NCBI RefSeq assembly: GCF_002797915.1
Contig: NZ_PGTY01000001.1
Span: 248,001-312,000 of the forward strand
Source: Yoonia maricola
GTDB lineage: Bacteria > Pseudomonadota > Alphaproteobacteria > Rhodobacterales > Rhodobacteraceae
DNA length: 64,000 nt
Reading direction: 5' to 3'
Shown: positions 1 through 12,089 of the stretch, piece by piece
Layout: every line of letters starts with the position of its first letter
Position numbering within the stretch: the first letter of the stretch is position 1
Position numbers and translations under genes: made by a program
The notes under the pieces: generated by a model
Seen by the model: only the letters and a program-made list of their open reading frames with translations
The model's database searches: none
What the model was told of the DNA's origin: nothing

Positions 1-435
1 GTAGTTTCGCGCGCCGCCGGTTGTGATGCAGAGGACAGTTTCATCCCGTTCAAGGTTCAGGTCCTGATGCGACACGCCAGGGATATCTGCCATGATGGTC
101 CAGACGGCATCACTCTCTGTCAGCGTATAGGTGAGGGGGTGGGATGACAATGCGTCTGGCTCTGCGGTGGTATCCTCCTCCTGCTTTGTCGCCGCGGGCG
201 CCTGTGGTACCGTCACGTCCATGCCACCCACGCGAAATTGTACGCCTGCATAGGCCCGCACAGGCCCACGTGTTGTTTCAATGACATGGTCACGCGCAAC
301 TTCTCCTTCGGGGCGATCTTTCAGCGCGTCTATGATGTCGCCGATCGCGTCACCTAGCGCTGTGGCTAAGTTGCTGAGCCCATCATCGATGCGTTTGGCA
401 TCGTCTGCGCGTTTGGATTTCTTACGGTCCGTCAT
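1..435 (-). CDS. gvpH: GvpH-like gas vesicle protein (Hsp20 fold), 3' end cut by window edge
   Basis: About 145 codons are visible and the frame stays open to the left edge. The first ~55 residues are charged and helical (starts MTDRKKSKRADD). An acidic linker follows, then a segment (YTLTESDAVWTIMADIPG, then SHQDLNLE) that looks like the start of the alpha-crystallin/Hsp20 domain. GvpH proteins of this kind accompany gas vesicle operons and are thought to act as chaperones for vesicle proteins. The ATG overlaps the stop of the upstream GvpA-family gene in an ATGA, so the two are translationally coupled. The partner genes make GvpH more likely than a general small heat shock protein. The missing C-terminus prevents a check of the whole Hsp20 domain. 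Confidence 0.75.
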   Translation of the reverse strand, partial: MTDRKKSKRADDAKRIDDGLSNLATALGDAIGDIIDALKDRPEGEVARDHVIETTRGPVRAYAGVQFRVGGMDVTVPQAPAATKQEEDTTAEPDALSSHPLTYTLTESDAVWTIMADIPGVSHQDLNLERDETVLCITTGGARNY

Positions 436-752
436 GAAAGCGTGGCCTCTTTGGTTGTTTGAGCGGTCAATGCGGCTTCCAGCTTATCGATACGCTCCAG
501 CAAGGCGGCGTTCTGGGTGGCCAAGGTATCGGCCTGCGCCGAAAGACGCGGGTCATTTTCCCACCAGTTAATGCCCATTTCCTTGGCTTTATCGACGGTC
601 GCGATCAAAAGGCGCAGTCGGATGGTCAGCAGTTCAATCCCGACCAGTGAGATCGAAACATCGCCGGCGATCACCACCCCTTTGTCAAGGATACGTTCCA
701 GCACATCGGCAAGCCCATCGCCTTGCGCGGGACCCTGAATGTCATAGGCCAT
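432..752 (-). CDS. GvpA-family gas vesicle protein (GvpJ/GvpS type)
   Basis: A 106-residue protein. Residues ~17-66 carry the GvpA-family core: LERILDKGVVIAGDVSISL, then a hydrophobic stretch VGIELLTIRLRLLIATVDKA. The core ends in INWWENDP, followed by a coiled-coil-like tail (TLATQNAALLERIDKLEAAL). The major shell protein GvpA is normally about 70-75 residues and lacks such a tail, so this is more likely a minor GvpJ/GvpM/GvpS-type component than the main shell subunit. The gene starts one base into the stop of gvpO (TAATG) and ends in an ATGA overlap with gvpH. No classical short GvpA is seen in the window; it may lie beyond the left edge. Confidence 0.85.
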   Translation of the reverse strand: MAYDIQGPAQGDGLADVLERILDKGVVIAGDVSISLVGIELLTIRLRLLIATVDKAKEMGINWWENDPRLSAQADTLATQNAALLERIDKLEAALTAQTTKEATLS

Positions 753-1060
753 TAGTTTTCCTGATCCTCGCGGTGATAACGCCGCAATCGGTTGAAATTG
801 ACCAGATCGGCGTGCGCATTGATTTGCACCGCATATGTGGTCAGAAGATCATTGTCGCCCATACGCGCAAAGCTTTCGATCACATCAATGGCGACTGTCC
901 AATCCCCGTCATCCGCGCGTGTACACTGCACAATTGCGTCAACCTGCTGGCCGGTCATTGAGCCGATGGCCGCTTTGGCGGCATTGATCGCGCCCAGCAT
1001 TGTCAGTGCCTCTTTGTCCTTTTGGCCTGACTTGAATTGGACCGCTGTGTTATGTGTCAT
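752..1060 (-). CDS. gvpO: gas vesicle protein GvpO
   Basis: A 102-residue protein from the ATG at 1060. An upstream in-frame start at 1150 would overlap the preceding gene, and the chosen ATG has a GAAAGAAC purine-rich stretch in front. The conserved GvpO domain is visible: AINAAKAAIGSMTGQQVDAI near the N-terminus, then DWTVAIDVIESFARMGDND, and the C-terminal pattern LTTYAVQINAHADLVNFNR ending in RYHRED. GvpO is a conserved accessory protein required for vesicle formation in several gas-vesicle operons; its biochemical role is unclear. It sits between a small unknown gene and the GvpA-family gene, in one minus-strand operon. Confidence 0.85.
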   Translation of the reverse strand: MTHNTAVQFKSGQKDKEALTMLGAINAAKAAIGSMTGQQVDAIVQCTRADDGDWTVAIDVIESFARMGDNDLLTTYAVQINAHADLVNFNRLRRYHREDQEN

Positions 1061-1080
1061 CAGTTGTTCTTTCGCTGGGA

Positions 1081-1305
1081 CTAACCATTTAGGATATCCA
1101 TCACCGTCTTGCGTTGCTTTTGATTGTGATCCAGTTCCGCGCGATAGCAATCAGCGCGTCCCTCGGCTTGATCAATGCCCATTTGCAGGCGTGCCGCGTC
1201 AAATTCCAACCGCACCAGTTTAATCGCTGCATCCTTTGGCGTGCGCGCAACAGCACTGCCGGCCATGCGCGGGCGCTTGGGCATTTGGGTTTTGGGGCGC
1301 TTCAT
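1081..1305 (-). CDS. small basic helical protein of the gas vesicle operon, unknown function
   Basis: A 74-residue protein. The N-terminus is very basic (MKRPKTQMPKRPRMAGS). The rest is predicted by eye to be one long charged helix (RLEFDAARLQMGIDQAEGRA, then YRAELDHNQKQRKTVMDIL), suggesting a coiled coil or protein-binding helix. Its ATG overlaps the gvpN stop in an ATGA, and gvpO begins about 20 bases after its TAG, so it is almost certainly a real, coupled gene. I do not recognise it as GvpG, GvpK or another named Gvp family. A structural or assembly role with the vesicle is inferred from position only. Confidence 0.6.
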   Translation of the reverse strand: MKRPKTQMPKRPRMAGSAVARTPKDAAIKLVRLEFDAARLQMGIDQAEGRADCYRAELDHNQKQRKTVMDILNG

Positions 1306-2255
1306 AAGGCCGGCTCCTCTTGTGGGTTCTGTTCAAGATATTTTGCGATTTGTCCGGTGGTCACCACGATGCCCCGGCCAACCAAGACATCAGCCGCAAT
1401 TTGCGCCAAAAGCGCGTCAGATAATACGGATGTGCGCAACCGCATCGCAGCAATTTGTGCGATCAATATGCAGGCGCGCATGGAACAGGACGTGTCGTCG
1501 CGCGCGAGGGTATTGACCAAATGAACGATCCGTTTTGCCAGCGCAGGCGGCGTGCCGGTCCTTGCCGCAACGATGCCGCTTTCGGTTTCGGTGGCATAGC
1601 GTGACATTTGAAATGTCACCATCCGGTCAAGCAAGGCGTCGGGGGATGCATTTACCCCCGCATAATCATGTGGATTGGACGTCAGGATGATGCGGAAATC
1701 GGGATGGGCATGAATGTATTCGGCGGTGGCCAATGGATCTGCAGCAACCAGAATGCCCTCTTCCAGCACGCTGAGCAGTATGCCATTCGCCTTGGGGCTT
1801 GAGCGCGTAAATTCATCGTAAACTAGCGTATGGCCTTGTAACATTGCCTCTGCCAGCATGGCATTTTCCCAATCGTAACGGGTGGTTGCCTCGCTTCGCC
1901 GGACCCGTTGAATGTATTTATCGACAACTGAACGGGTTGATTGCCCGACCTGCTTTCCCACCATATCTTCGATGTTAAGCCAGTCGTTGCCGGTCATGAC
2001 ACTGACAGGGCGCCCGAGCCGGCTTGCAATTTCCAGCGCGACAGCCGTTTTGCCGCGACCCGCCGTGCCTTGAAAGTGGATGGGCACACCTGCGCGTGCG
2101 TAGAACAAGCCGCGTTGTACAAGTGCTGAAATTTCCTCATTTTCGAAGAATTGGTTCTTCTGACGCAATCCCGCCCACGGGTTGTAGGGCGGCGCATCGC
2201 TGTTGAGCGGCGACACCGGTTCTATGTCATTCAGGGATGGTAGGTGTTTTGTCAA
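1302..2255 (-). CDS. gvpN: gas vesicle protein GvpN, MoxR-type AAA+ ATPase
   Basis: A 317-residue AAA+ protein. The Walker A motif GTAGRGKT is at residues 63-70, Walker B LVYDEF near 144-149, and a sensor stretch IILTSNPHDYAG follows. The segment NDWLNIEDMVGKQVG after Walker A is typical of GvpN. GvpN ATPases are needed for gas vesicle growth. The apparent start is a TTG with GAGG almost touching it, which is poor spacing, so the true start may differ by a few codons (a GTG lies a little downstream). It is the first gene of the gas vesicle set, 130 bases after the pcl stop on the same strand, so it may be read from its own promoter or from the PYP operon. Confidence 0.92.
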   Translation of the reverse strand: MTKHLPSLNDIEPVSPLNSDAPPYNPWAGLRQKNQFFENEEISALVQRGLFYARAGVPIHFQGTAGRGKTAVALEIASRLGRPVSVMTGNDWLNIEDMVGKQVGQSTRSVVDKYIQRVRRSEATTRYDWENAMLAEAMLQGHTLVYDEFTRSSPKANGILLSVLEEGILVAADPLATAEYIHAHPDFRIILTSNPHDYAGVNASPDALLDRMVTFQMSRYATETESGIVAARTGTPPALAKRIVHLVNTLARDDTSCSMRACILIAQIAAMRLRTSVLSDALLAQIAADVLVGRGIVVTTGQIAKYLEQNPQEEPAL

Positions 2256-2388
2256 ACCTCAATCCAGTTCTAGGATGTGTCGCGACATGCGATGGAGCCA
2301 AGGTCTGCTATTGAGGTAAATTATTGGTGAATCAGCGTAGAATTAGTGGTTTCACTTTGTTGCGACGTGACTTGGCTGTGCGTGCCTA

Positions 2389-3717
2389 TCAGTCACACCA
2401 TTGCGGTTGATCACCGGTCCAATCCTGCAGCTTGCCCATGTCGTTGCATGGGCGTGTGGCACGAAACGTTAAGGTCGCCGGACGTGCCGGTGGTGCAAGG
2501 TGCTGCAAAAGATGCGCGCGGATGCGCTGCTCTAGCGCGTTTGTAGGATCATCTGGTTTCGACGGGATGATTAAAGCGTGTAATCGACCCGCGCTGACGC
2601 GTATATCGACAGAGTTCACCCCAAAAACCTTGCCGATCTGCTCTGCCACGTGTTGAGGCGCAACATTCACGCCAGCAACCTGCACAACATCATCCCGGCG
2701 ACCTGAAATAGTAAATCTGCGCGGTCCGGTCCAGTTTATTTTATCTTGAATATCAAGGATTTTATCGACTGTGTCTGCATGCCTGATATGCGCATCTGCT
2801 CTTTCAAGATGGGCGAGCAGATGGAATGCATCATCCGATGCCTGCCGAAAACCTATGCCTCCGGTTTCGGTCGCGCCATATACTTCGGTCAATGAAGACA
2901 AACCCGCCATTTCCAACACGGACCAAGTCGTTGTTGTCGTGGGCGCACCCGCGCTGATACCTCTTACGCCAGGCTGGAATTGAAGGCCGCTCTTTATTAA
3001 CCGTTCCCATATATACGGTGTCGCAATCACAAGATCACCGGCCTGCGCAACGGTAAAACCGCGTGTTGGTGTTTGCTGATGAAGATCGATCGTGTCGCAT
3101 CCCGCCATCGTTGGCAAAATACAGGAAAACAAGAAGCCATAGATGTGATGCGGCGGGACCAGCGATAAAACACGCGCAGAAGGTTGCAACATTGGCACGG
3201 GGCCCGCAAGCAGCGTTGTTACCTCTGCTTGCAGCGCCCGCATTTCATGAATGATTGTTTTGGGTGCGCCGGTTGACCCCGACGTCAGAAATGCGATCTG
3301 GGTTGGTGTCTGCAACAACAAAAAATGTTGCATAATGAGTTCAACCCAATCACATACCCGTCTTTTGACGAGCAGATAGTCCTCGACCCCAGTGGTGTGC
3401 AACTGGAAGAACTGGTTCACCCGCAAGACCAGATCTAGCCTAGACAGGCTGTCAAAGCCCAAAGACGTCTCATCGATACTCAAGCGATCAATCTGCGCAT
3501 CCGTCGCGCCAATTGATTGCGCAGTCAGGGCCTTTTCTTGCGCGACGACGCCAGCTTTGATCAGCCTTTCTTGTTCGACGGCAATGAGGCTGAGCAGCAC
3601 GCGCCGAACAGAATCCCTTGCAAGACATGCCTCCATCATATGACCCGACGTGTCCTTCATAGGCCGTTGGTGGCTATCCCTGAGCCAAGTAGCATCATTG
3701 CCCGTGCTCAAGATCAT
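2389..3717 (-). CDS. pcl: p-coumaryl-CoA ligase-like enzyme with an N-terminal ACP-like segment
   Basis: A 442-residue adenylate-forming enzyme. The P-loop LTSGSTGAPK is at residues 144-153, then EVYGATETGG, and the C-terminal hinge GRRDDVVQVAGVNVAP. Position in an operon with PYP argues that it activates p-coumarate, the PYP chromophore, as in Rhodobacter. Usual 4-coumarate ligases have roughly 180 residues before the P-loop. Here the region before it is shorter, and residues ~45-130 look instead like an acyl carrier protein, with LGFDSLSRLDLVLRVNQFF at 86-104 carrying a DSL phosphopantetheine-type motif, followed by VEDYLLVKRRVCDWVELI. The start overlaps the upstream gene by 23 bases; Met20 (3660) is an alternative. 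No tyrosine ammonia-lyase gene is visible nearby. Confidence 0.82.
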   Translation of the reverse strand: MILSTGNDATWLRDSHQRPMKDTSGHMMEACLARDSVRRVLLSLIAVEQERLIKAGVVAQEKALTAQSIGATDAQIDRLSIDETSLGFDSLSRLDLVLRVNQFFQLHTTGVEDYLLVKRRVCDWVELIMQHFLLLQTPTQIAFLTSGSTGAPKTIIHEMRALQAEVTTLLAGPVPMLQPSARVLSLVPPHHIYGFLFSCILPTMAGCDTIDLHQQTPTRGFTVAQAGDLVIATPYIWERLIKSGLQFQPGVRGISAGAPTTTTTWSVLEMAGLSSLTEVYGATETGGIGFRQASDDAFHLLAHLERADAHIRHADTVDKILDIQDKINWTGPRRFTISGRRDDVVQVAGVNVAPQHVAEQIGKVFGVNSVDIRVSAGRLHALIIPSKPDDPTNALEQRIRAHLLQHLAPPARPATLTFRATRPCNDMGKLQDWTGDQPQWCD

Positions 3718-4180
3718 AAAGAAATTCGCCTATGAGACTGCCATAGTGATGTCGGGCATCCGAAATATGGGCCATCAATTGTAATGCCCAAGCGCCCATT
3801 TCGCTGGCGGCCGCTGTATGTACATCAAAGTCAGTGCCTAACGGCACATCATTTGCTGCATCATAGCCGATCAGTTTGTCTATGGCGTCGTCAAGCGTAG
3901 CGGCTTCCCATGCGCGGATCGTGTCTTGCTTATCCTCGGACTGGTGAAAGAGACGGACGGCTGCGACAAAACCTTGCTCTGCGGTGCGGTAGAGGTTGAT
4001 CTCATACCAATAAGGGATAGCCGAAGTGTAACTCATGGCCATTGCAAGTTCAGAACCGTCAAAGCGCAACGGCCGACCGCCGGCGCGTTTGATGTGATAG
4101 GGCATGGCGGTATGCGCAAATTGTGAAACACCGGCCGGAACGGCCTGTTCCGGTTGCGTCACTTCCATCATTGTTGTCAT
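3695..4180 (-). CDS. unknown protein of the PYP operon, GRxPLRF family member 1
   Basis: A 161-residue protein with no recognised domain. The motif GGRPLRFDGSEL is near residues 34-45, followed by WYEINLYRTAEQGFVAAVRL, which looks like two beta strands. A helical C-terminus ends in YGSLIGEFLYDLEHG. The same layout (G-R/K-x-P-L-R-F-x-G motif, strand pair, helical end) recurs in the 204-residue gene just upstream and in the divergent gene at 5816, so three divergent copies of one family sit in this island. It starts in an ATGA overlap with the upstream paralogue and overlaps pcl by 23 bases, so it belongs firmly to the pyp-pcl operon. Function unknown; a role in PYP maturation or signalling is only a guess. 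Confidence 0.7.
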   Translation of the reverse strand: MTTMMEVTQPEQAVPAGVSQFAHTAMPYHIKRAGGRPLRFDGSELAMAMSYTSAIPYWYEINLYRTAEQGFVAAVRLFHQSEDKQDTIRAWEAATLDDAIDKLIGYDAANDVPLGTDFDVHTAAASEMGAWALQLMAHISDARHHYGSLIGEFLYDLEHGQ

Positions 4181-4740
4181 GTTCGTATCCTTTCAATTGG
4201 CAAACGCTCTGACTGGAGACAAAGCGATGTGAGAGACCGAAGGGCGCTGTAAAGTGGTGCGCGGGCATCCGGGCAAGGTGAGGGCGGTGTAAGTTGTTCG
4301 ATGATTTTGCTGGCGCGGTCATACCAATTGGACAAATGCTGTTCGGGGGCCTGAACAGAAATCTTATTGGCATTGAACAGCGAGCGCGCCGGCGCGTCTG
4401 GCGGTATAAGCAAAGCCAAGGACATATAAATATCCCCCGCATTATCGACATAAATCGCCATGTGCTGTTGGAGAACCATGTCATCAACGCGTACTGGAAC
4501 AATGTTCGCCACAACAAGTAGACCTTCAAAACGAAGGGGGCGTTTGCCATCCCGCCGCAGACTTTGCATCTGCGTTGCCGAGCGTGGCACGGACGTCGCT
4601 GTCGGAACAGTGTCGTGGATCATGCGCGCCGGTACTTCGCGCGCACTTTCGCCAGCAGCCGTAACGGATTGACCGGCAAGGAGTGCGCGCAATGCAGGCG
4701 TGATTGTCACGTCAATCTGCGGATTTATGTGCTGTCCCAT
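4177..4740 (-). CDS. unknown protein of the PYP operon, GRxPLRF family member 2
   Basis: I place the start at the ATG at 4740 (MGQHINPQIDVTITP), 23 bases after the pyp stop codon. An earlier ATG at 4791 would run back into the pyp coding end. The product is about 187 residues. A GKRPLRFEGLLVVANI motif lies mid-protein, followed by QHMAIYVDNAGDIYMSLALL, which matches the strand pair of its two paralogues, and then a helical C-terminal third (NWYDRASKIIEQL, LYSALRSLTSLCL). It has an N-terminal extension of ~70 residues that the other two copies lack. It ends in an ATGA overlap with the next paralogue. No domain recognised and no function can be assigned. Confidence 0.65.
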   Translation of the reverse strand: MGQHINPQIDVTITPALRALLAGQSVTAAGESAREVPARMIHDTVPTATSVPRSATQMQSLRRDGKRPLRFEGLLVVANIVPVRVDDMVLQQHMAIYVDNAGDIYMSLALLIPPDAPARSLFNANKISVQAPEQHLSNWYDRASKIIEQLTPPSPCPDARAPLYSALRSLTSLCLQSERLPIERIRT

Positions 4741-4763
4741 GTACTTAGACGCCCAGTGTAATC

Positions 4764-5138
4764 TTAAGTGCGCTTTACAAACATCCAGCAATTCTGCCCG
4801 TCAGGTTGCGCCTTCAGGTGGATTTTGACCCCCACATCAGCCCCTTTGTAGGCAAATTTGTAGTCAAACATGACGTTGATTTGCCCGCTGCGGTGGAATT
4901 TCAGGAATTCGCCGTGAAAGCGTTTGCCTTTCGCGCAAGGTGCGACGTCGTTAAAAAAATCTTTGCCGATCATGTCTTCTGGTGTCCGGCTCGCAATCAG
5001 GCCTTCCGCCTTGTTGTATTTCACAATGCGGCCGTTGCGATCTAACATGACGGCGCCGAAGGGCAGGTATTCTGCGCGCTGCGGCTCACGATTTAGGATG
5101 TTATCCAAGTCTTGGCTGCCGAAGGGAATGATTTCCAT
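4764..5138 (-). CDS. pyp: photoactive yellow protein (PYP)
   Basis: A 124-residue PAS-domain blue-light receptor, almost the same length as Halorhodospira PYP (125). The chromophore-binding cysteine is Cys68 in NDVAPCAKGKRFHGEF. The pocket residues Tyr41 and Glu45 (YNKAEG) and Arg51 (SRTPEDMIGK) are present, offset by one from Halorhodospira numbering. The position of Thr50 in that protein is Ala49 here, and the following Gly is Ser50, so one hydrogen-bonding partner of Tyr42 is missing and the spectrum may differ from the classical 446 nm form. The C-terminus WMFVKRT is canonical. A clear AAGGACAG ribosome site precedes the ATG. Ligand p-coumarate would be supplied by pcl in the same operon. 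Confidence 0.97.
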   Translation of the reverse strand: MEIIPFGSQDLDNILNREPQRAEYLPFGAVMLDRNGRIVKYNKAEGLIASRTPEDMIGKDFFNDVAPCAKGKRFHGEFLKFHRSGQINVMFDYKFAYKGADVGVKIHLKAQPDGQNCWMFVKRT

Positions 5139-5153
5139 GTTACTGTCCTTGCT

Positions 5154-5591
5154 CTAGGCTTGTGTTTTTGGGGTCATGTCATCACCGTTTTCGTTTTTCA
5201 GAAACGAATCTGTGCGGGTCAGTGACATGTCATGAACGCGTTTGAGGGCTTGGTTTCCAAACTCCTCTTGTTTTTTGGCACGGCCTTCGGGGGCGGCCCA
5301 TTTGTAATCCATCTTTCCAACAGTCACGATGCACTGTGGAATAAGGTCAAACCGTTCCTTCATTGCGTATTTTGCCGAATCGACTTCGATCTCTTCAACG
5401 GCTTCGAATTCAACCATGGCATTGAGTTCTTCAATCACGCTTTCAGCTTCAAGCTTCGCGGTGTTTCCGATCACTTCTGCCGCGGCAAGCAAGACCCATT
5501 CGGGATGTTCGCCCCGGATAATCAGGCTACGCGCAGGTTCGCGGAATTCGTATTGCCCATCAGACTCACTCAGGCGTCCAATTTCATTCAT
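5154..5591 (-). CDS. unknown acidic protein, first gene of the PYP operon
   Basis: A 145-residue soluble, acidic protein with no signal peptide or membrane segment. It begins MNEIGRLSESDGQYEFREPA behind a good ribosome site (AAAGGAG). The central part is an acidic helix (AKLEAESVIEELNAMVEFEA, then EEIEVDSAKYAMKERFDLIP) and the end is basic and polar. pyp starts 15 bases after its TAG, so both are expected on one transcript. I recognise no family. Position directly in front of pyp makes it a candidate partner of PYP signalling or of chromophore attachment, but nothing in the sequence proves this. Confidence 0.65.
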   Translation of the reverse strand: MNEIGRLSESDGQYEFREPARSLIIRGEHPEWVLLAAAEVIGNTAKLEAESVIEELNAMVEFEAVEEIEVDSAKYAMKERFDLIPQCIVTVGKMDYKWAAPEGRAKKQEEFGNQALKRVHDMSLTRTDSFLKNENGDDMTPKTQA

Positions 5592-5815
5592 TGACTATGC
5601 TCCTTTCGGCGCCTCGCGGCAGTGGCTGCCGGGATGCATTGCGGATGACGCTTGATCAGGCCGAATCATGAATAATTCGCAAACTCCCCCAAAAAATTGC
5701 GTATTTTCGTGATCGTGTTGATCCGTCAAAAACGGGACGATGAAATTAACTTCAAAGTAACCGCGCCTCTGCTAGGCAATCCTATCCAACCGGATTTTGC
5801 GATAGGAATTTCACT
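5592..5815. promoter_or_regulatory. divergent promoter region between the PYP operon and the 154-residue gene
   Basis: A 224-base gap between two genes pointing away from each other; it must hold the start signals for both. The middle (about 5665-5760) is AT-rich compared with its surroundings. I could not fix a convincing -35/-10 pair on either strand. A TTGAT..TCAA element at 5718-5729 looks like half an FNR site but has the wrong spacing. Confidence 0.45.
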
Positions 5816-6280
5816 GTGCCACAGGCTCACCATCAGGATGATACGCACACGATGATTGATGCGCCCGACCTTTGGGAAATGGCTGTTATCGGGCGCCACG
5901 GCCGGCCGCCATTGCGTTTCAAAGGGCAGCGGCACGCGCGTATGCAACGTAGGGTTTCGGCACAGGATACCTTGAATATTGAACTTTGGGCGCGCCGCAA
6001 GGGCGACTTTGTTCTTGCTTATAGTGACGCAACTGTGAGCCCGACTAAAATACAGGCTGTGGTCGTTGACGGACAATCACAAGCCATGGATCATTTGGAG
6101 GCTTTATGCGCAGCAACAACCGTTCTGACAGCGCATAACGACCTGCCAGTCGCCTTGACGGAAGCGCTGCAAACGCTGCGTCTACAACAAGAATTTGCGA
6201 TTTTGGTGGGCGATTTTCTGGCAGCCCTTGATGCTTTTGATGCGCGTACACCACGCGTTCGACTCACAACGGAGGCTTAG
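5816..6280 (+). CDS. unknown protein, GRxPLRF family member 3
   Basis: A 154-residue protein if it starts at the GTG at 5816; the ATG at 5852 (MIDAPDLWEMAVIG) is an equally likely start. The motif HGRPPLRFKGQRHARMQ is followed by LNIELWARRKGDFVLAYS, which aligns by eye with the strand pairs of the two paralogues in the pyp operon. The C-terminus (LQQEFAILVGDFLAALDAFD) parallels YGSLIGEFLYDLE in member 1. It is transcribed away from the pyp operon and is followed two bases later by the helix-hairpin-helix gene. No known domain; function unknown. Confidence 0.7.
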   Translation: MPQAHHQDDTHTMIDAPDLWEMAVIGRHGRPPLRFKGQRHARMQRRVSAQDTLNIELWARRKGDFVLAYSDATVSPTKIQAVVVDGQSQAMDHLEALCAATTVLTAHNDLPVALTEALQTLRLQQEFAILVGDFLAALDAFDARTPRVRLTTEA

Positions 6281-6282
6281 CA

Positions 6283-7230
6283 ATGGAGCGAGAAAACTAT
6301 CGTAAAAGAGCAGGCGAGGTCAGACGCTCCGCACGGGCCAATTTGCAAGAGATCAGGCGCGCGCGCATGGCGCGTAAGACGGCAATATTACAGGCCGCTG
6401 AAACGACGCAGGACGCAACAAAACCTGAAGAAAACTTGCCAATAGACGAGCAGATTGCCGATGCGGCGCTGCGTTCAGATAACCCATCTGTAAAAGTTCA
6501 GCATGATCACATCGTTGCAGAGGTTGAACCCGTCAGCGAGATGGACGCGCTTGATGAGTTGGCGGTCAAAAACGCGGCACTTGCCGAGATTTCCGAACCT
6601 GTACAATCCGGCCTTATGGACAATGTCAGTGCTGCGCCGTGCGATGTGGCTGTTGAAGAGGGCGCTATGCCGACTGACACTTCCGATGAGGCACGCGACA
6701 TGATGTCTAATGCGCCTCAAGACTTAAATGCCGCATCGTTTGATGTGACCGACGGGGCAGGTGTTGGGCAACAGGCTGTCGCTGATGGAAGTTTCACGGT
6801 GCCACCCGACATTGCCGATCAGCTAAGCGCCACCGAGTCCCGCGCCATTGATGATATCAGCACCACACAGTTCCACTGTCAAAATGAGGACACGGTCGTT
6901 TCAGCAGTCCCTGAAACGGATGCACCTGCGTTGGGGACGGTCAATGCCAGTTCTGAGGTGGAAGAGCCTGCGCCTGACTTCGGCCCTGACATGACTGTCA
7001 AGGCAGCTGTGGGCCCGGTTGCGGATGATGCGTGGTCTGAAAGTGAATTGGCGCAGCTTCCCGGTGCGGGGCCTGGCCTGGTTTGGATGTTGGGGCAATG
7101 TGGTGTTACAACGCTAACACAACTCGCTGAAAGGGATGCATCTGTGCTGTCAAATCAACTGGGGGTGGTGGGACAGATATTAGACGTGTCCCAATGGGTC
7201 AGTTTCGCACAGGAAAACACCGTCGCTTAG
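6283..7230 (+). CDS. acidic protein with a C-terminal helix-hairpin-helix domain, unknown function
   Basis: A 315-residue protein in three parts. Residues 1-40 are strongly basic and helical (NYRKRAGEVRRSARANLQEI). Residues ~45-255 are low-complexity, acidic and Ala/Asp/Glu-rich, probably disordered. Residues ~258-310 form a helix-hairpin-helix-like domain (LAQLPGAGPGLVWMLGQCGV, then TTLTQLAERDASVL) like those found at the tails of some ribosomal L21- and NADH-dehydrogenase-associated proteins. Such domains bind DNA non-specifically or act as protein contacts. The gene follows the third GRxPLRF paralogue after two bases, so the pair is an operon. Similar tail domains occur in proteins of very different roles, so no function is assigned. 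Confidence 0.65.
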   Translation: MERENYRKRAGEVRRSARANLQEIRRARMARKTAILQAAETTQDATKPEENLPIDEQIADAALRSDNPSVKVQHDHIVAEVEPVSEMDALDELAVKNAALAEISEPVQSGLMDNVSAAPCDVAVEEGAMPTDTSDEARDMMSNAPQDLNAASFDVTDGAGVGQQAVADGSFTVPPDIADQLSATESRAIDDISTTQFHCQNEDTVVSAVPETDAPALGTVNASSEVEEPAPDFGPDMTVKAAVGPVADDAWSESELAQLPGAGPGLVWMLGQCGVTTLTQLAERDASVLSNQLGVVGQILDVSQWVSFAQENTVA

Positions 7231-7861
7231 GTTTTTTGCGCGACATCAGGCAATGTTCGAAATGGCCTTGGCGGTGTAAGCTGCGCATATCTTCGGCGGG
7301 GTGCCCCATGATGTATACCATCCGGCGATAGCTGGTATTTGGATAAAAGGCCGTTGTTGCCAATGGGTTCAATTATGCAAGATGCATAGGTGAGATCTGT
7401 GGCCCCGCATCCGCCATTGCCACATTGAAATGCTGGTTTTTCAAGTGAGTGGTGTGTCTACGCAAGATCGCGATCGCGCAGGATGTTGGCCGCTGGGCGC
7501 GCTGATGTCGTGTTTGCTTCTGTCAGCACCACGGTCCAGCTTACAGTATTGAAACAAAAAAGTTGGCGCATAGGCAAAGCGATGCTGGTGTGTTGGCTCT
7601 ATTGTAGCAACTTCACGCCAGTTTCCCGATGTGACGCCCGCTATTTCGCGGCTCGGTTGCGGATCCGCGCTGGTTTATTGGGCGTATGCTGCTTGAGCGA
7701 CTAAAAACCGCGCGTGCGATGGCAATCGACAGCCGACGCCACGTTCGCGGACGTGCGCCCGCTACATAGCAGACCTATACTGGGATCATCTGTTGACGTT
7801 GTTTCCCCAGTATTCGCTTTCGCCTTTTCAACCACTCATCCACATTGACCGGAAGCCAAAC
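7231..7861. other. 631-base stretch without a convincing gene
   Basis: It separates the PYP/gas vesicle island from the exopolysaccharide locus. Short open frames exist but have no ribosome site or recognisable product. Base composition varies, and no inverted repeat, tRNA or insertion-sequence end was seen. It should hold the promoter for exoA near its right end, where a TTGACG lies at 7793-7798 without a good partner. It may be the remains of an insertion or deletion between the two accessory regions. Confidence 0.4.
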
Positions 7862-8878
7862 ATGCATGCAAACATCCCATCACCTGAACCCGCCGCTGAT
7901 CCGCTTGTCGTGGTCCCTTGCCTGAATGAAGCGGCGCATATTGCTGACATATTAACCCAATTGCGCCCGGCGATGGATCGTTTGGGCGGGCGTGTGGTTG
8001 TCGTTGATGGCGGCAGCACTGATGGCACGGTAGATATTGTTGCCAAGTTCGCGGCAGCTGACGCACGCATTTCGCTGCTCCACAACCCTGACAAGATACA
8101 AAGCGCTGCCATCAATCTGGCCGTGGCACAGGACGAAGGGCGGGCGGCTCATTTGATCCGGATAGATGCTCATTGTGCTTATCCTGATGATTTTTGTGAT
8201 GTGCTGATGCAGCAGGTCCAGTCTGTACACGCCGATAGCATCGTTGTCAGCATGACGGCAGAGGGCAGCGCACCGGTTCAGCGTATCAACGCCATGACCC
8301 AGAATTCTTCAATCGGTAACGGCGGATCTGCTCATCGGAATCTGCCCGCCGCGGCCTATGTTGATCACGGGCATCATGCACTGATCAAGATCGCCGCTTT
8401 TCGCGCGATTGGCGGCTATGATCCGAGCTTTGCCCATAACGAAGATGCCGAATTTGACTACCGCCTGCGGGCGGCAGGTTACCGGATCTGGCTGACCGAC
8501 GCGACGGTGATCACTTACTTTCCGCGTGCTTCACTGGGGTTGGTCGCCCGGCAGTATTTCAACTATGGGGCGGGTAGGGCGCGCAATCTGCTGAAACATC
8601 GGGTCACACCGCGGCTGCGGCAGACCAAAGTCATGATGGTGGCACCCGCGCTTTTACTGGCGTTGTTGGCACCGATGCATTGGCTTTTTGCCTTACCGGC
8701 GTGTTTGTGGGCAGCATATTGTATCTTCACCGGTTTGCGTATGGCGGTCACACAACGTGACCCGGCGCTGGCACTTTGTGGTATTGCTGCGATGATCATG
8801 CATTTGTCATGGTCGCTGGGTTTTTGGCAAAAGCTATTGCGCAACGCATTACCCTTCGGTCGGAGGGTTGCACAATGA
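7862..8878 (+). CDS. exoA: glycosyltransferase family 2, ExoA-like
   Basis: A 338-residue inverting GT2 enzyme from the ATG at 7862, which has GGAAG in front. A longer frame back to 7793 lacks a ribosome site. The GT-A fold opens with VVVPCLNEAAHIADIL, then VVVDGGSTDGTVDI, a DxD-like RIDAHCAYP, and GGYDPSFAHNEDAEFDYRL, the acceptor/catalytic region. Two membrane helices are near the C-terminus (MMVAPALLLALLAPMHWLF and following). It resembles Sinorhizobium ExoA, which adds a beta-1,3-linked glucose to the lipid-linked succinoglycan unit. It ends in an ATGA overlap with exoM, so the two are translated together. Confidence 0.8.
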   Translation: MHANIPSPEPAADPLVVVPCLNEAAHIADILTQLRPAMDRLGGRVVVVDGGSTDGTVDIVAKFAAADARISLLHNPDKIQSAAINLAVAQDEGRAAHLIRIDAHCAYPDDFCDVLMQQVQSVHADSIVVSMTAEGSAPVQRINAMTQNSSIGNGGSAHRNLPAAAYVDHGHHALIKIAAFRAIGGYDPSFAHNEDAEFDYRLRAAGYRIWLTDATVITYFPRASLGLVARQYFNYGAGRARNLLKHRVTPRLRQTKVMMVAPALLLALLAPMHWLFALPACLWAAYCIFTGLRMAVTQRDPALALCGIAAMIMHLSWSLGFWQKLLRNALPFGRRVAQ

Positions 8879-9792
8879 ACCAGACGCTTGAAGTGTGCGT
8901 TTGCACCTATCGTCGCCCGCAATTGGCCAAGACGTTGACCTCGCTTTTGGAATTGGTGACGCCAGAGGGTTATGATCTGTCTATTCTGGTGATCGACAAT
9001 GATGACAAGCCCAGTGCTGAACCTATCGTCGCTGAAATTGCGGCCGATGCTGGCAAGCCGTTACGTTACGTGCATTGTCCGCAGGGCAATATCTCGGTCG
9101 CGCGCAATGGGGCGCTGACCCACAGCAAGGCCCGCTATCTTGCGTTTATTGATGATGATGAGGTCGCACCGCCGGATTGGCTGGTGCATCTGACGAAAGA
9201 TATGGGCAAGGATGGCGCGGATGTCGTGCTTGGCCCGGTTGAGGCTGATTATACCGATGGTGCCCCCGCATGGATGCAGCGCAGCCGGATACACGCGACC
9301 ATGCCGGTCTGGGTCGATGATAAGATTATTACGGGGTATACCTGCAATGTCTTGTTTGATCGCCACAGCCCCGCTTTGCGTGATTGCCTTTTTGATCTGT
9401 CATTGGGGCAGTCAGGCGGCGAAGATACAGCATTTTTCGCCAAAGTGGTCGCCAATGGGGGCAAGATCGCGTTTTCGCCTGATGCCGTGCTTCATGAAGC
9501 GATCCCGGCGGATCGGGTTAGCTTCAAGTGGTTGTTACGTCGCCGCTTTCGCATGGGCCAGACGCACGGGCGGCTGGTTGCCGAAAACGGTGCTTCGCCC
9601 CGGCTTTGGGTGATTACCGCGGGCAAGGTGGTTTACTGTGCAGGTATGGCGGTGTTGCAGGTTTTGTCGCCCGCGCGCCGCAACAAGGCAATCCTGCGCG
9701 GCGCACTGCATGTTGGTGCCTTGTCAGGTTTGGCGGGCGGTCGTGAGTTGCAGCAATACGGGCCGGAATTCACGCGGCGGCAAAGTGAATAA
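8875..9792 (+). CDS. exoM: glycosyltransferase family 2, ExoM-like
   Basis: A 305-residue GT2 enzyme. The start at 8875 (MNQTLEVCVCTYRRPQLAKT) overlaps the exoA stop as ATGA, and an earlier in-frame ATG lies inside exoA and is rejected. Motifs: LVIDNDDKPSAEPIV, the ARYLAFIDDDEVAPPDWL metal-binding acidic cluster, SGGEDTAFFAKVV, and a C-terminal membrane-associated part. Sinorhizobium ExoM adds a beta-1,4 glucose in succinoglycan assembly; this is the closest family I recognise. Same transcript as exoA and probably as the BY-kinase downstream (9 bases). Confidence 0.8.
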   Translation: MNQTLEVCVCTYRRPQLAKTLTSLLELVTPEGYDLSILVIDNDDKPSAEPIVAEIAADAGKPLRYVHCPQGNISVARNGALTHSKARYLAFIDDDEVAPPDWLVHLTKDMGKDGADVVLGPVEADYTDGAPAWMQRSRIHATMPVWVDDKIITGYTCNVLFDRHSPALRDCLFDLSLGQSGGEDTAFFAKVVANGGKIAFSPDAVLHEAIPADRVSFKWLLRRRFRMGQTHGRLVAENGASPRLWVITAGKVVYCAGMAVLQVLSPARRNKAILRGALHVGALSGLAGGRELQQYGPEFTRRQSE

Positions 9793-9801
9793 CGCAGGCA
9801 G

Positions 9802-11769
9802 GTGCGCAGTATGAAAGATATCGGATTACGTATCCGCGATGCCGAGCTTCAGGCAGACCGTTTGCAGCAGAGCGCTGCAACGGACGCCACCACGCTTGCC
9901 GACGTCATCGCCGCATTGCGCAGGCAGTATGTGCCGCTTCTTTTATGCGCTTTGCTTGGCGTAATTGCGGGTGCCGTTCATCATGTGACCACGCCCGAGC
10001 AATATTACACCTCTGCAACTGTATTGGTGGATGAACGTCCAAGCGCGTTGGATGAGGAAATCACGGCAAGCATTCCGTTTGCACGCAACGATACGTCACT
10101 GCTGAACGAATTGCAGGTCCTGAAATCCCTGCAACTGGCCACGGAGGTGACGCGCCGCCTTGAGCTGCAGGATAGGGACATTTTCTTGAACCCGCCATCG
10201 TCGCTGGCACGCGATATCGTCTTTGGTGTGAAGGACAGCATTACAGGTTTGATCGGCATTGGCAGTGCATCGGAAGACCCGGTTGAAACTGACCCTGAAC
10301 AGCAACGCGCAGCACAGCTTGTGGCAACAGCATCCAAGTTGCAGCGCGATATCAGCGTGACCCGTATCGGGCTGAGTTTTTCCATTGAGATCAGCTATAT
10401 AGGCCATGATCCCACCTTGGCAGCGCAGATTGTGAACACCTATGCTGACGCCTATCTTGAAGACGGTTTGAACGCCAATGTTGAATCCACAGAACGCACC
10501 GCAGAGTGGATGCGCAACCGGCTGGAAGAGCTTGAACAAAGCTCGGCTGACGTGTTGGCTCAGGCTGCAGCATTGCGTCAGAGCCAACCGGGCAGGGTGG
10601 CTGAACTGCGCGAATTGGCGCAGCGTGCCGCAACCTTGGATGCGCTTTATCAGACGATATCGGCGCGGTATGAGCAGATATCGATCCAAGGGTCTTTTCC
10701 GGTGTCAAACGGGCGTATCCTGAGCCAGTCGATTGTGCCCAAAACGGCGGCACTCCCCAAGCTATGGCAGACTATGGCGGTCACGCTGCTGTTGGGCCTG
10801 ATGATGGGGTTTTGCGTTGCCGTGCTGCGCGAAGCACGTGAAATGTCGTTTCGTGTCAGCACGGATGTGTATGAACATACAGGCCAGACATTTTTGGGTC
10901 ATCTGCCGCGCATTGATTTTAAGGACCTGCGCAACGCACAGCCCCCACCACCCAAGACGAAAGAAATTATGCTGGATGCGCAAATGGCTTCGGCAGAAAA
11001 TGCAACAGAGGCTGACGCCGCCAAAAATGACCCTGTCCGTATCGCATGGGAGCGGGCGATTTCTGGGGATTTGTCACCGCAGTTGTATTGGTCCGTTCTT
11101 ATGCCCCAATCGATGTACAGCGACACATTGCGCAACATCCATACCAGTGTGAACCTGGGTGCGGCAGATGGGATGGGCAAGGTTGTTGCCGTGACATCCA
11201 TGTTGCCTGACGAAGGCAAGACGACACTTGCAGTCAATTACGCAAACATGCTGGCCGCATCGGGGGCCCAGACCTTGTTGATCGACATGGACCTCAATGA
11301 CTTCAGCTTAAGCAAGGCGCTCAATCTACCGCAGGGGCCCGGTATTTTTGAGGTTCTGCGCGGGCTTTCCCCGCTGTCTGACGCGATGCATCATCTGGAT
11401 TATACAGGCCTTGGCGTTTTGCCATCTGGGCCAAGGCAGCAGCAACCCGTAACCGCAGATGTCGTCTATCAACGCAACCTGCACGCGCTGATGGCGGAGT
11501 TGCGCAAGCACTATGATTATGTGGTTCTGGACATGCCAGCCTTGGGCAAGGGGGCGGAAGTGAAGGCAATGATTGATCTTCTGGATAAGATCGTTCTGGT
11601 CTGTGCGTGGGGGAAAACGCCACGATCCTTGGTGGCCCGGTATCTGACCCATGAGCCTGAAATTGCACAAAAGGTTCTTGGTATCGCCCTGAACAAGGTC
11701 AACCTGCGCAAGCTGGACAGATATGCGCGGCCCGGTTGGCCTGAAAGCTATCTGGAAACCGAAGTCTGA
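9802..11769 (+). CDS. exoP: Wzz-type chain-length protein fused to BY-kinase, ExoP-like
   Basis: A 655-residue inner-membrane polysaccharide co-polymerase. It starts at GTG 9802; ATG 9811 is equally good. A first membrane helix at residues ~45-62 (PLLLCALLGVIAGAV) is followed by a periplasmic Wzz domain with a coiled-coil stretch and a second helix at ~325-341. The cytoplasmic ATPase has Walker A MLPDEGKTTLA at ~467-477 and Walker A' TLLIDMDLND at ~491-500. The tyrosine cluster normally used for autophosphorylation is nearly absent at the C-terminus (only two Tyr in the last 20 residues), so control by phosphorylation may be weak. It sets polymer length together with exoF and exoQ. Confidence 0.9.
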   Translation: MRSMKDIGLRIRDAELQADRLQQSAATDATTLADVIAALRRQYVPLLLCALLGVIAGAVHHVTTPEQYYTSATVLVDERPSALDEEITASIPFARNDTSLLNELQVLKSLQLATEVTRRLELQDRDIFLNPPSSLARDIVFGVKDSITGLIGIGSASEDPVETDPEQQRAAQLVATASKLQRDISVTRIGLSFSIEISYIGHDPTLAAQIVNTYADAYLEDGLNANVESTERTAEWMRNRLEELEQSSADVLAQAAALRQSQPGRVAELRELAQRAATLDALYQTISARYEQISIQGSFPVSNGRILSQSIVPKTAALPKLWQTMAVTLLLGLMMGFCVAVLREAREMSFRVSTDVYEHTGQTFLGHLPRIDFKDLRNAQPPPPKTKEIMLDAQMASAENATEADAAKNDPVRIAWERAISGDLSPQLYWSVLMPQSMYSDTLRNIHTSVNLGAADGMGKVVAVTSMLPDEGKTTLAVNYANMLAASGAQTLLIDMDLNDFSLSKALNLPQGPGIFEVLRGLSPLSDAMHHLDYTGLGVLPSGPRQQQPVTADVVYQRNLHALMAELRKHYDYVVLDMPALGKGAEVKAMIDLLDKIVLVCAWGKTPRSLVARYLTHEPEIAQKVLGIALNKVNLRKLDRYARPGWPESYLETEV

Positions 11770-11843
11770 AATGCCGGTTTTGCCCAGTAGCGCGGGACGC
11801 TGAATTCGCGTATGCTTTTACCAATGTGGTTTGGGAGGAGCCG

Positions 11844-12089
11844 TTGCGCCTACAGATATTTGCCTGTTTTATGGGTGTCGTCGCCGCTGCGATGGCTGTG
11901 TTTTCGTATCTGGCGGGCGCTGACGCGGGTACGATTATCCTGCGGGTCGTTGTTGTTTTACTCGTGCTGCAAGTTGCTTATTTTCTGCTTCTTGTTGCAA
12001 TGAGTATGCTGTCACCTGCAAAACCCAAACCTGTCGAAAGTGATCAAAATGCACCGGTTGATGCGCTGGCCAAGACTCAAAAGCAGTAA
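11844..12089 (+). CDS. small membrane protein of the ExoX (exopolysaccharide production repressor) type
   Basis: About 81 residues with two membrane helices (IFACFMGVVAAAMAVFSYLA and LRVVVVLLVLQVAYFLLLVA), then a short polar tail. The pattern, especially LQVAYF at the end of helix 2, is like the small ExoX/Psi proteins that lower exopolysaccharide output in rhizobia, where they act on ExoY. I choose the TTG at 11844 because GGGAGGAG lies just before it; the in-frame GTG at 11826 is an alternative. No ATG is available. It lies directly after the BY-kinase gene. The assignment rests on topology and short similarity. Confidence 0.6.
   Translation: MRLQIFACFMGVVAAAMAVFSYLAGADAGTIILRVVVVLLVLQVAYFLLLVAMSMLSPAKPKPVESDQNAPVDALAKTQKQ

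Follow-up and report, generated by a model that had tools for sequence, protein, structure and literature searches.

Three paralogous proteins encoded beside photoactive yellow protein and gas-vesicle genes in Yoonia maricola, candidates for a link from light to buoyancy

Organization of the pyp–gvp Locus

We analyzed a 64-kb stretch of the 3.8-Mb genome of Yoonia maricola (G000:C1:248001-312000; hereafter the window), in which the gene for photoactive yellow protein (PYP; gene pyp) is accompanied by genes for three small proteins, termed P1, P2, and P3. A preliminary description of this DNA had regarded the three as divergent paralogs of one family and as suggestive of a dedicated partner system of the photoreceptor, and all three frames are indeed open over the lengths given in Table 1. 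Together with the DNA to the left of the window, the cluster comprises a TAL-like gene, gas-vesicle (gvp) genes, gvpJ, gvpO, gvpN, the gene for 4-coumarate:CoA ligase (pCL), P1, P2, PYP, and Q145, with the remaining gvp genes located left of the window; P3 and R315 are transcribed in the direction opposite to the rest of the cluster. The stop codon of P2 overlaps the start of P1 by 4 bases, and the open frame of P2 extends to 204 aa if an upstream TTG is taken as the start. The longest pCL frame overlaps the end of P1, and the true pCL start may lie downstream of the start of that frame. Our reading of the gene at the far end of the cluster as TAL is based on its 55–60% identity with the copies from three more loci of this kind rather than on a TAL family search.

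Table 1. Features of the pyp–gvp locus in the window.
Feature	Position	Strand	Remarks
gvpJ/A-like gene	432-752		after gvpO; Gas_vesicle Pfam above cut-off
gvpO	752-1150		after gvpN; GvpO Pfam above cut-off
gvpN	1302..2255	-	first gas-vesicle gene downstream; TIGR02640 253.4 bits, slightly below 266.8 cut-off
pCL, 4-coumarate:CoA ligase	2389..3717	-	TIGR02372 386.4 bits, above cut-off, from residue 32
P1	3695..4180	-	161 aa; best-conserved and pyp-tracking member; long C-terminal helix (predicted)
P2	4177..4740	-	187 aa from ATG; fast-diverging member
pyp, photoactive yellow protein	4764..5138	-	TIGR02373 176.6 bits, above 143.05 cut-off
Q145	5154..5591	-	145-aa protein adjoining pyp
CtrA-like site (putative)	5746-5761	+	TTAAC-N5-AGTAAC, 54 nt ahead of P3
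P3	5816..6280	+	154 aa from GTG; member with divergent transcription
R315	6283..7230	+	315-aa protein adjoining P3

P1, P2, and P3 Belong to One Paralogous Family

The motif given for the three proteins in the preliminary description, G-[RK]-x-P-L-R-F-x-G, fits P2 (GKRPLRFEG) and P3 (GRPPLRFKG) but not P1 (GGRPLRFDG), which carries a G at the second place; the looser G-x-x-P-L-x-F-x-G covers all three. Comparison of the single sequences revealed a modest, suggestive similarity, as the local scores were matched by 0/500 shuffles for P1–P2, 4/500 for P1–P3, and 11/500 for P2–P3. Profiles built from 13 (P1), 11 (P2), and 10 (P3) sequences were subsequently compared using hhalign, which gave 97.1% for P1–P3 (119 columns; E-value 7e-11, as for a single comparison), 92.5% for P1–P2 (53 columns), and 92.9% for P2–P3 (83 columns). 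Upon realignment and comparison in both directions, the three pairs reached 90.0–97.2%. As controls, each was set against 18 further families from the locus, some of which have few rows (4 for TAL, 5 for the 765-aa protein described below), and none of these 54 comparisons exceeded 3.0%. Furthermore, the P3 model, from which P1 is absent, matched the P1 frame of the window at an E-value of 3.1e-10 in a small six-frame set. All three pairs lie far above the locus controls, and the profiles confirm P1, P2, and P3 as homologous members of one paralogous family. A chance motif is ruled out by the profile comparison with its controls. Degenerate gvp genes are ruled out as well by hhalign values of ≤ 3.0% to the gvp families of the locus; no Gvp family in Pfam or NCBIfam matched the P proteins.

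In a tree of 44 rows, which leaves out the P2 of locus L013 (no motif match) and the rows of the metagenome-assembled genome (MAG) HLUCCA09, P1, P2, and P3 formed separate clades (support 99/91, 97/98, and 98/89, respectively), so that the split between the copies would predate the sampled genera. A gene of genome G883 and plasmid relatives fall in the P1 clade as well, and a gene of MAG G008 falls in the P2 clade, all of them described below. We take the tree to indicate three anciently duplicated copies, with long branches that make any finer branching unsafe. Mean pairwise identity across ten loci was 86% for PYP, 63% for Q145, 54% for GvpN, 50% for P1, 42% for pCL, 36% for R315, 32% for P3, and 29% for P2. 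P1 is thus the most constrained of the three P proteins, and it contains a near-invariant stretch, LAMAMS[FY]....PYWYEIN.

AlphaFold models, built singly for P1 and P3 (mean pLDDT, the predicted local distance difference test score, 84), show the same order of strands and helices when compared by order without superposition, i.e., a series of beta-strands with a long C-terminal helix (residues 125–158 in P1 and 110–144 in P3). The common helical end noted in the preliminary description accordingly applies to these two models, and the match of P2 stops before that end; in a joint alignment of P2 and P1, MAFFT aligned the rows of P2 to the half belonging to P1. Searches of solved-structure profiles returned nothing convincing (best E-values 0.45 and 0.04), and comparison of the predicted folds, with the viral structure library outside its scope, gave no match above background. 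P proteins that bind nucleic acid in a PUR- or WGR-like manner and regulate gvp expression, with PYP modulating them, are an option that we rate as very improbable.

Occurrence and Gene Order

How closely the family follows pyp differs between its members. P1 is present in exactly those 3 of 198 genera of the family in which PYP scores above its cut-off (Fisher P 8e-7), and in exactly those 4 of 56 congeners that have pyp (Fisher P 3e-6), genomes being taken as independent in both cases. Tight co-occurrence with pyp thus holds for P1; P3–R315 can persist without pyp. Thirteen P1 loci were found when contigs of titled records were scanned, and the window and genome G198 bring the total to 15 genomes; in all of these except L020, a short contig, pyp is in view (14 genomes). 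The P1 of Yoonia sp. F2084L is 68% identical to that of the window.

A joint profile of the P proteins (A8) matched 7 of the 198 genera and 6 of the 56 congeners and, in a class sample of 337 genomes, a single genome beyond that of the window (G883), with at most 18, 64, and 10 candidates scored per genome, respectively. Wide occurrence in genomes lacking both pyp and gvp, which would have spoken against a specific association, was hence not seen; even the seven genera include one weak match with an internal stop. Two of all these profile matches, both weak and with an internal stop (G049, 3.2e-4; G217, 3.6e-4), were taken as chance. The GvpN family search, confined to the 198 genera with the 56 congeners outside it, was unspecific by E-value (197/198), and only the four matches with E < 1e-60 were counted.

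The order Q145–PYP–(P2)–P1–pCL is kept in all 14 genomes with pyp in view. In 12 of them, P2 separates PYP from P1, the exceptions being L018 and L019, and gvpN lies within 10 kb in 12 (none is found there in L018, and the contig of L019 ends too early to tell). In Rubrimonas, P2 and P1 are joined in a single open frame, which both the P1 and the P2 model match and the halves of which resemble each other (score 95 vs. 33 ± 5 for shuffles); this arrangement suggests that P2 and P1 act together.

The next gene found after P1 is pCL in 15/15 genomes, close by in 14 and with about 1 kb between the matches in L020. This constancy, as well as the joint movement of P1 with pyp and pCL, would also suit a P1 that serves as maturation partner, helping pCL to load p-coumarate onto apo-PYP. 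We consider such a role improbable, because plasmids of Caballeronia and Indioceanicola carry pyp–pCL (the latter also an ammonia-lyase) and have no P match on the plasmid, because the Halorhodospira operon is given as pyp, pCL, and TAL in the part of PMC12826048 that was available, and because it leaves P2 and P3 unexplained. The pyp plasmids of Caballeronia, Indioceanicola, and Niveispirillum showed no P match over the whole record, the chromosomes lying outside the search, and no GvpN match at 1e-30.

Companion and Neighboring Genes

Two further genes accompany the P family. Q145 adjoins pyp in 14/14 genomes with pyp in view, is better conserved than P1 (63% vs. 50%), and recurs in G883 one small gene away from pyp (33% identity). 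It has no Pfam or NCBIfam match and is a second candidate for a PYP partner. R315 has a basic N-terminus and a C-terminus with weak, sub-threshold likeness to helix-hairpin-helix; its relative in G883, located between gvpA and gvpN, gives a weak HHH_5 match. R315 adjoins P3 in 16 of the 17 genomes in which both were seen, including genomes without pyp.

Several neighbors are recorded here in their own right. Left of the window, a 946-aa protein with many PAS-like repeats, read as a chemoreceptor, adjoins the TAL-like gene at the other end of the cluster (L004 730-3570, minus strand), and a repetitive, coiled-coil-like protein of 765 aa is encoded between gvpA and gvpK (L004 5651-7948, minus strand), with related frames at four other loci of the group. 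Soon after R315, at positions 7793-11769 of the window (plus strand), glycosyltransferase-like genes are accompanied by one for a 655-aa protein resembling polysaccharide-chain kinases, and we read this group as an exopolysaccharide cluster. An Rfam search of window positions 1-12000 gave no match, and a scan for promoters and terminators gave counts close to those of shuffled sequence.

A CtrA-like Site Upstream of P3

Q145 and P3 are separated by 224 bp. This interval includes TTAACTTCAAAGTAAC (5746-5761), the sole match to TTAA-N8-TAAC in the 64-kb window. A CtrA-like site precedes P3 in 6 of 14 regions, four of them congeners: five lie at 43–71 nt, and one at 208 nt has a perfect TTAAC-N5-GTTAAC. 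The background is 0.008 per region, a value that includes the P3 sites themselves and regions present twice. A Poisson estimate for these sites counts related loci as independent and overstates the enrichment for that reason. According to the accessible parts of the respective papers, TTAAC-N5-GTTAAC is the CtrA motif and CtrA affects gas vesicles in Rhodobacter capsulatus (PMC7232146), R. sphaeroides gas vesicles depend on CtrA (PMC9430884), and gas-vesicle transcripts of R. capsulatus drop by a mean of 65% in photosynthetic growth (PMC5643017). Judging by this putative site, P3 would be under CtrA control.

Loci at Which pyp and gvp Are Separated or Lost

Genomes in which pyp or gvp has moved or been lost show how the individual members segregate. 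In Rhodovulum 12E13, Q145–PYP–P1–pCL stand alone without gvp within 10 kb; about 150 kb away on the same contig, gvpA and further gvp genes are accompanied by P2, P3, R315, and a P1-like copy. In its close relative, MAG HLUCCA09, these two groups of genes are found on two short contigs. As the pyp contig of HLUCCA09 ends about 1.8 kb past P1, the distance to gvp cannot be told there, and the separation is shown by Rhodovulum 12E13 alone. Genome G051 has gvp and a TAL-like gene and keeps P3–R315 about 185 kb from gvp; no PYP was found at an E-value of 1e-3, P1 and P2 had no match, and Q145 was not seen in three stretches, to which its search was limited. In G140, which lacks both pyp and any strong GvpN match, R315–P3 lie beside a fragment of Q145 (residues 1–64), as if the rest had been deleted. 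The region (L060 8641-10430) contains open R315 and P3 frames, the truncated Q145, and then a chemoreceptor-like frame, and looks like the scar of a lost pyp–gvp cluster. The pyp-negative genome G206 has P3–R315 at a contig end. In sum, P1 goes with pyp, P3–R315 goes with gvp or survives alone, and P2 goes with either.

This segregation bears on whether the P proteins are gas-vesicle accessory proteins, i.e., minor shell, assembly, or clustering factors, for which closeness to pyp is mere shared location. Such a role would account for the P1-like gene, P2, P3, and R315 within the gvp cluster of Rhodovulum 12E13 with pyp elsewhere (HLUCCA09 looks alike), for the P2-like gene that neighbors gvp genes in MAG G008, which is pyp-negative, and for the survival of P3–R315 in the gvp-positive, pyp-negative G051. 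It fits poorly with the P1 that remains with pyp where gvp is elsewhere, with G051 having gvp and no P1 or P2 match, and with the lack of any profile match of the P proteins to gvp families of the locus. Moreover, four pyp-free gvp regions (Octadecabacter, Methylosinus, Methylocella, and Spartinivicinus) contained no P, Q145, or R315, the profile search being limited to these regions of the genomes. Taken together, we regard a role restricted to vesicles as rather unlikely.

Outside the family, G883, from another alphaproteobacterial family, combines a P gene with genes for a 514-aa protein, Q145, PYP, and pCL and with gvpA, an R315-like gene, gvpN, gvpO, gvpJ, gvpF, and gvpG, all within a single stretch. 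The P gene, Q145, pyp, pCL, gvpA, the R315-like gene, and gvpN fall within 7.4 kb, and the PYP is 41% identical. Alone against the profiles, the G883 P gene gave 96.2% for P1, 55.7% for P2, and 26.6% for P3, with nine controls at ≤ 0.9%. In the same region (L062 9361-19600), the 514-aa protein and two 88-aa proteins are encoded beside pyp.

Remote Relatives and the EXLDI Family

The P proteins had been described as matching no known family. This holds for Pfam, in which P1, P2, and P3 have no match and 13 P1 rows and 10 P3 rows gave scattered single-row matches only (best 0.0019), but a remote relation to EXLDI (TIGR04342), the nearest named family and one of unknown function, is suggested. 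EXLDI was matched weakly by 7 of 34 P-family rows (best E-value 6.6e-4, all under the cut-off), with 20.0 bits for the P1 of L023; P1, P2, and P3 of the window had no EXLDI match. The G883 P gene (5.8e-4, 20.2 bits) and an Ahniella plasmid protein (3e-5, 24.3 bits) matched as well, and every score was under the curated 32-bit cut-off for membership. Three gammaproteobacterial plasmid proteins (Ahniella, Halomonas, and Shewanella), two of which were cut to their last 130 residues before alignment, gave as a profile 97.4% to P1, 90.3% to P3, and 74.3% to P2, with 18 controls at ≤ 3.5% (hhalign). Repeated weak matches of the P family and its G883 relative to TIGR04342 thus stand against two differences: P1 and P3 have a predicted long C-terminal helix as well as pyp and gvp neighbors, and the 8–12 kb shown around the plasmid relatives contain no pyp and no gvp.

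Further searches added little. A search of the full-text literature for EXLDI returned one paper, which by its title and abstract is not about the function of the family. The EXLDI search of 142 class genomes gave no match and is uninformative, as its control was silent too. PHROGs matches were at best 0.062 for the G883 gene and 0.21–0.34 for P1 and P3, with none for P2; PADLOC gave a single match for P1 (0.018), taken as noise. No relatives of the Ahniella protein were found in viral contigs, and tblastn of P1, P3, and Q145 against plasmids found none.

A Possible Link between PYP and Gas Vesicles

We tentatively propose that P1, P2, P3, Q145, and R315 form an accessory set linking PYP to gas vesicles, by which light would adjust vesicle formation and buoyancy; this is a quite conceivable reading, somewhat short of a probable one. 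The set would occur where PYP is, or was, built into a gvp cluster. PYP would absorb blue light, and P1, whose gene lies between pCL and PYP (or P2) and which is present wherever PYP was found in the group, would be its direct protein partner. P2 would act in one complex with P1, and P3 and R315 would act on the vesicle side, in assembly or expression, under the CtrA system, so that light would tune vesicle formation and thereby buoyancy. A link between the light sensor and the vesicle genes, with P1 at the sensor end, appears to be the simplest account of the gene data. That PYP, via P1, physically gates gas-vesicle assembly in a dedicated photoreceptor-to-organelle module, older than the Rhodobacteraceae copies in view of the one-P version in another alphaproteobacterial family, seems doubtful.

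As for the partner system suggested initially, membership in one family, the age of the copies, the tight co-occurrence of P1 with pyp, and the P2–P1 frame of Rubrimonas speak for it. That the three P genes work as one unit did not stand, given P3–R315 in three pyp-negative genomes (G051, G140, and G206), and P2, P3, and a second P1-like gene kept with gvp, and P1 with pyp, in Rhodovulum 12E13 and HLUCCA09.

Several observations weigh against the proposed link. For none of the P proteins are we aware of data on interactions, expression, or phenotype. The three genomes just named, with P3–R315 far from gvp in one, argue that P3 need not serve PYP, and the pyp-negative MAG G008 (82% complete) has its P2-like gene beside gvp-like genes on an 8.5-kb contig. 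In Rubrimonas, P3 lies about 17 kb from R315, so the pair is not strictly linked; the joint P2–P1 frame comes from one draft genome, and a long frame by itself proves little, as the P1 frame of L018 also extends back over pyp. The fast divergence of P2 and P3 fits loose constraint as well as co-evolution, and 8 of the 14 regions lack a CtrA-like site. Lastly, given the plasmid relatives, membership in the family does not by itself imply a light role, and within the P1 clade the G883 gene groups, on long branches, with these plasmid domains.

Comparison with Known Systems

The neighborhood of pyp and gvp is already in print (accessible text of PMC3646047; table text of PMC6273459). In the former, which cites Kyndt et al. 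2004, gvp genes are reported near pyp in R. capsulatus SB1003 and Loktanella sp. SE-62. Table 1 of PMC6273459 appears to connect Burkholderia, Curvibacter, and Haliangium with gas vesicles as well. The locus in the window is of the same kind; the account in PMC3646047, as far as its text was available, differs in naming no P1–P3 family. No mention of the P family was found in the accessible PYP and gas-vesicle literature, including PMC9664959 and the operon section of PMC12826048, most subscription papers being outside reach. According to PMC12826048, the signaling steps that follow PYP are an important gap, and Table 1 of that paper lists the function of PYP in R. capsulatus and R. sphaeroides as unknown. 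PYP signaling partners proposed so far, with GGDEF/EAL domains, histidine kinases, or chemoreceptors, likewise rest partly on gene neighborhoods or predicted operons. They differ in that section 8 and Table 2 of PMC12826048 contain no P-like family, the terms "gvp" and "vesicle" being absent from its main text, and in that no GGDEF/EAL, histidine kinase, or chemoreceptor output domain was found in the P proteins (Pfam, NCBIfam). The locus offers a small and testable gene set that accompanies pyp where the photoreceptor is connected with gas vesicles, and hence named output candidates, P1 first, with P1–P3 as candidates for a connection through which light could regulate the buoyancy of the cell.

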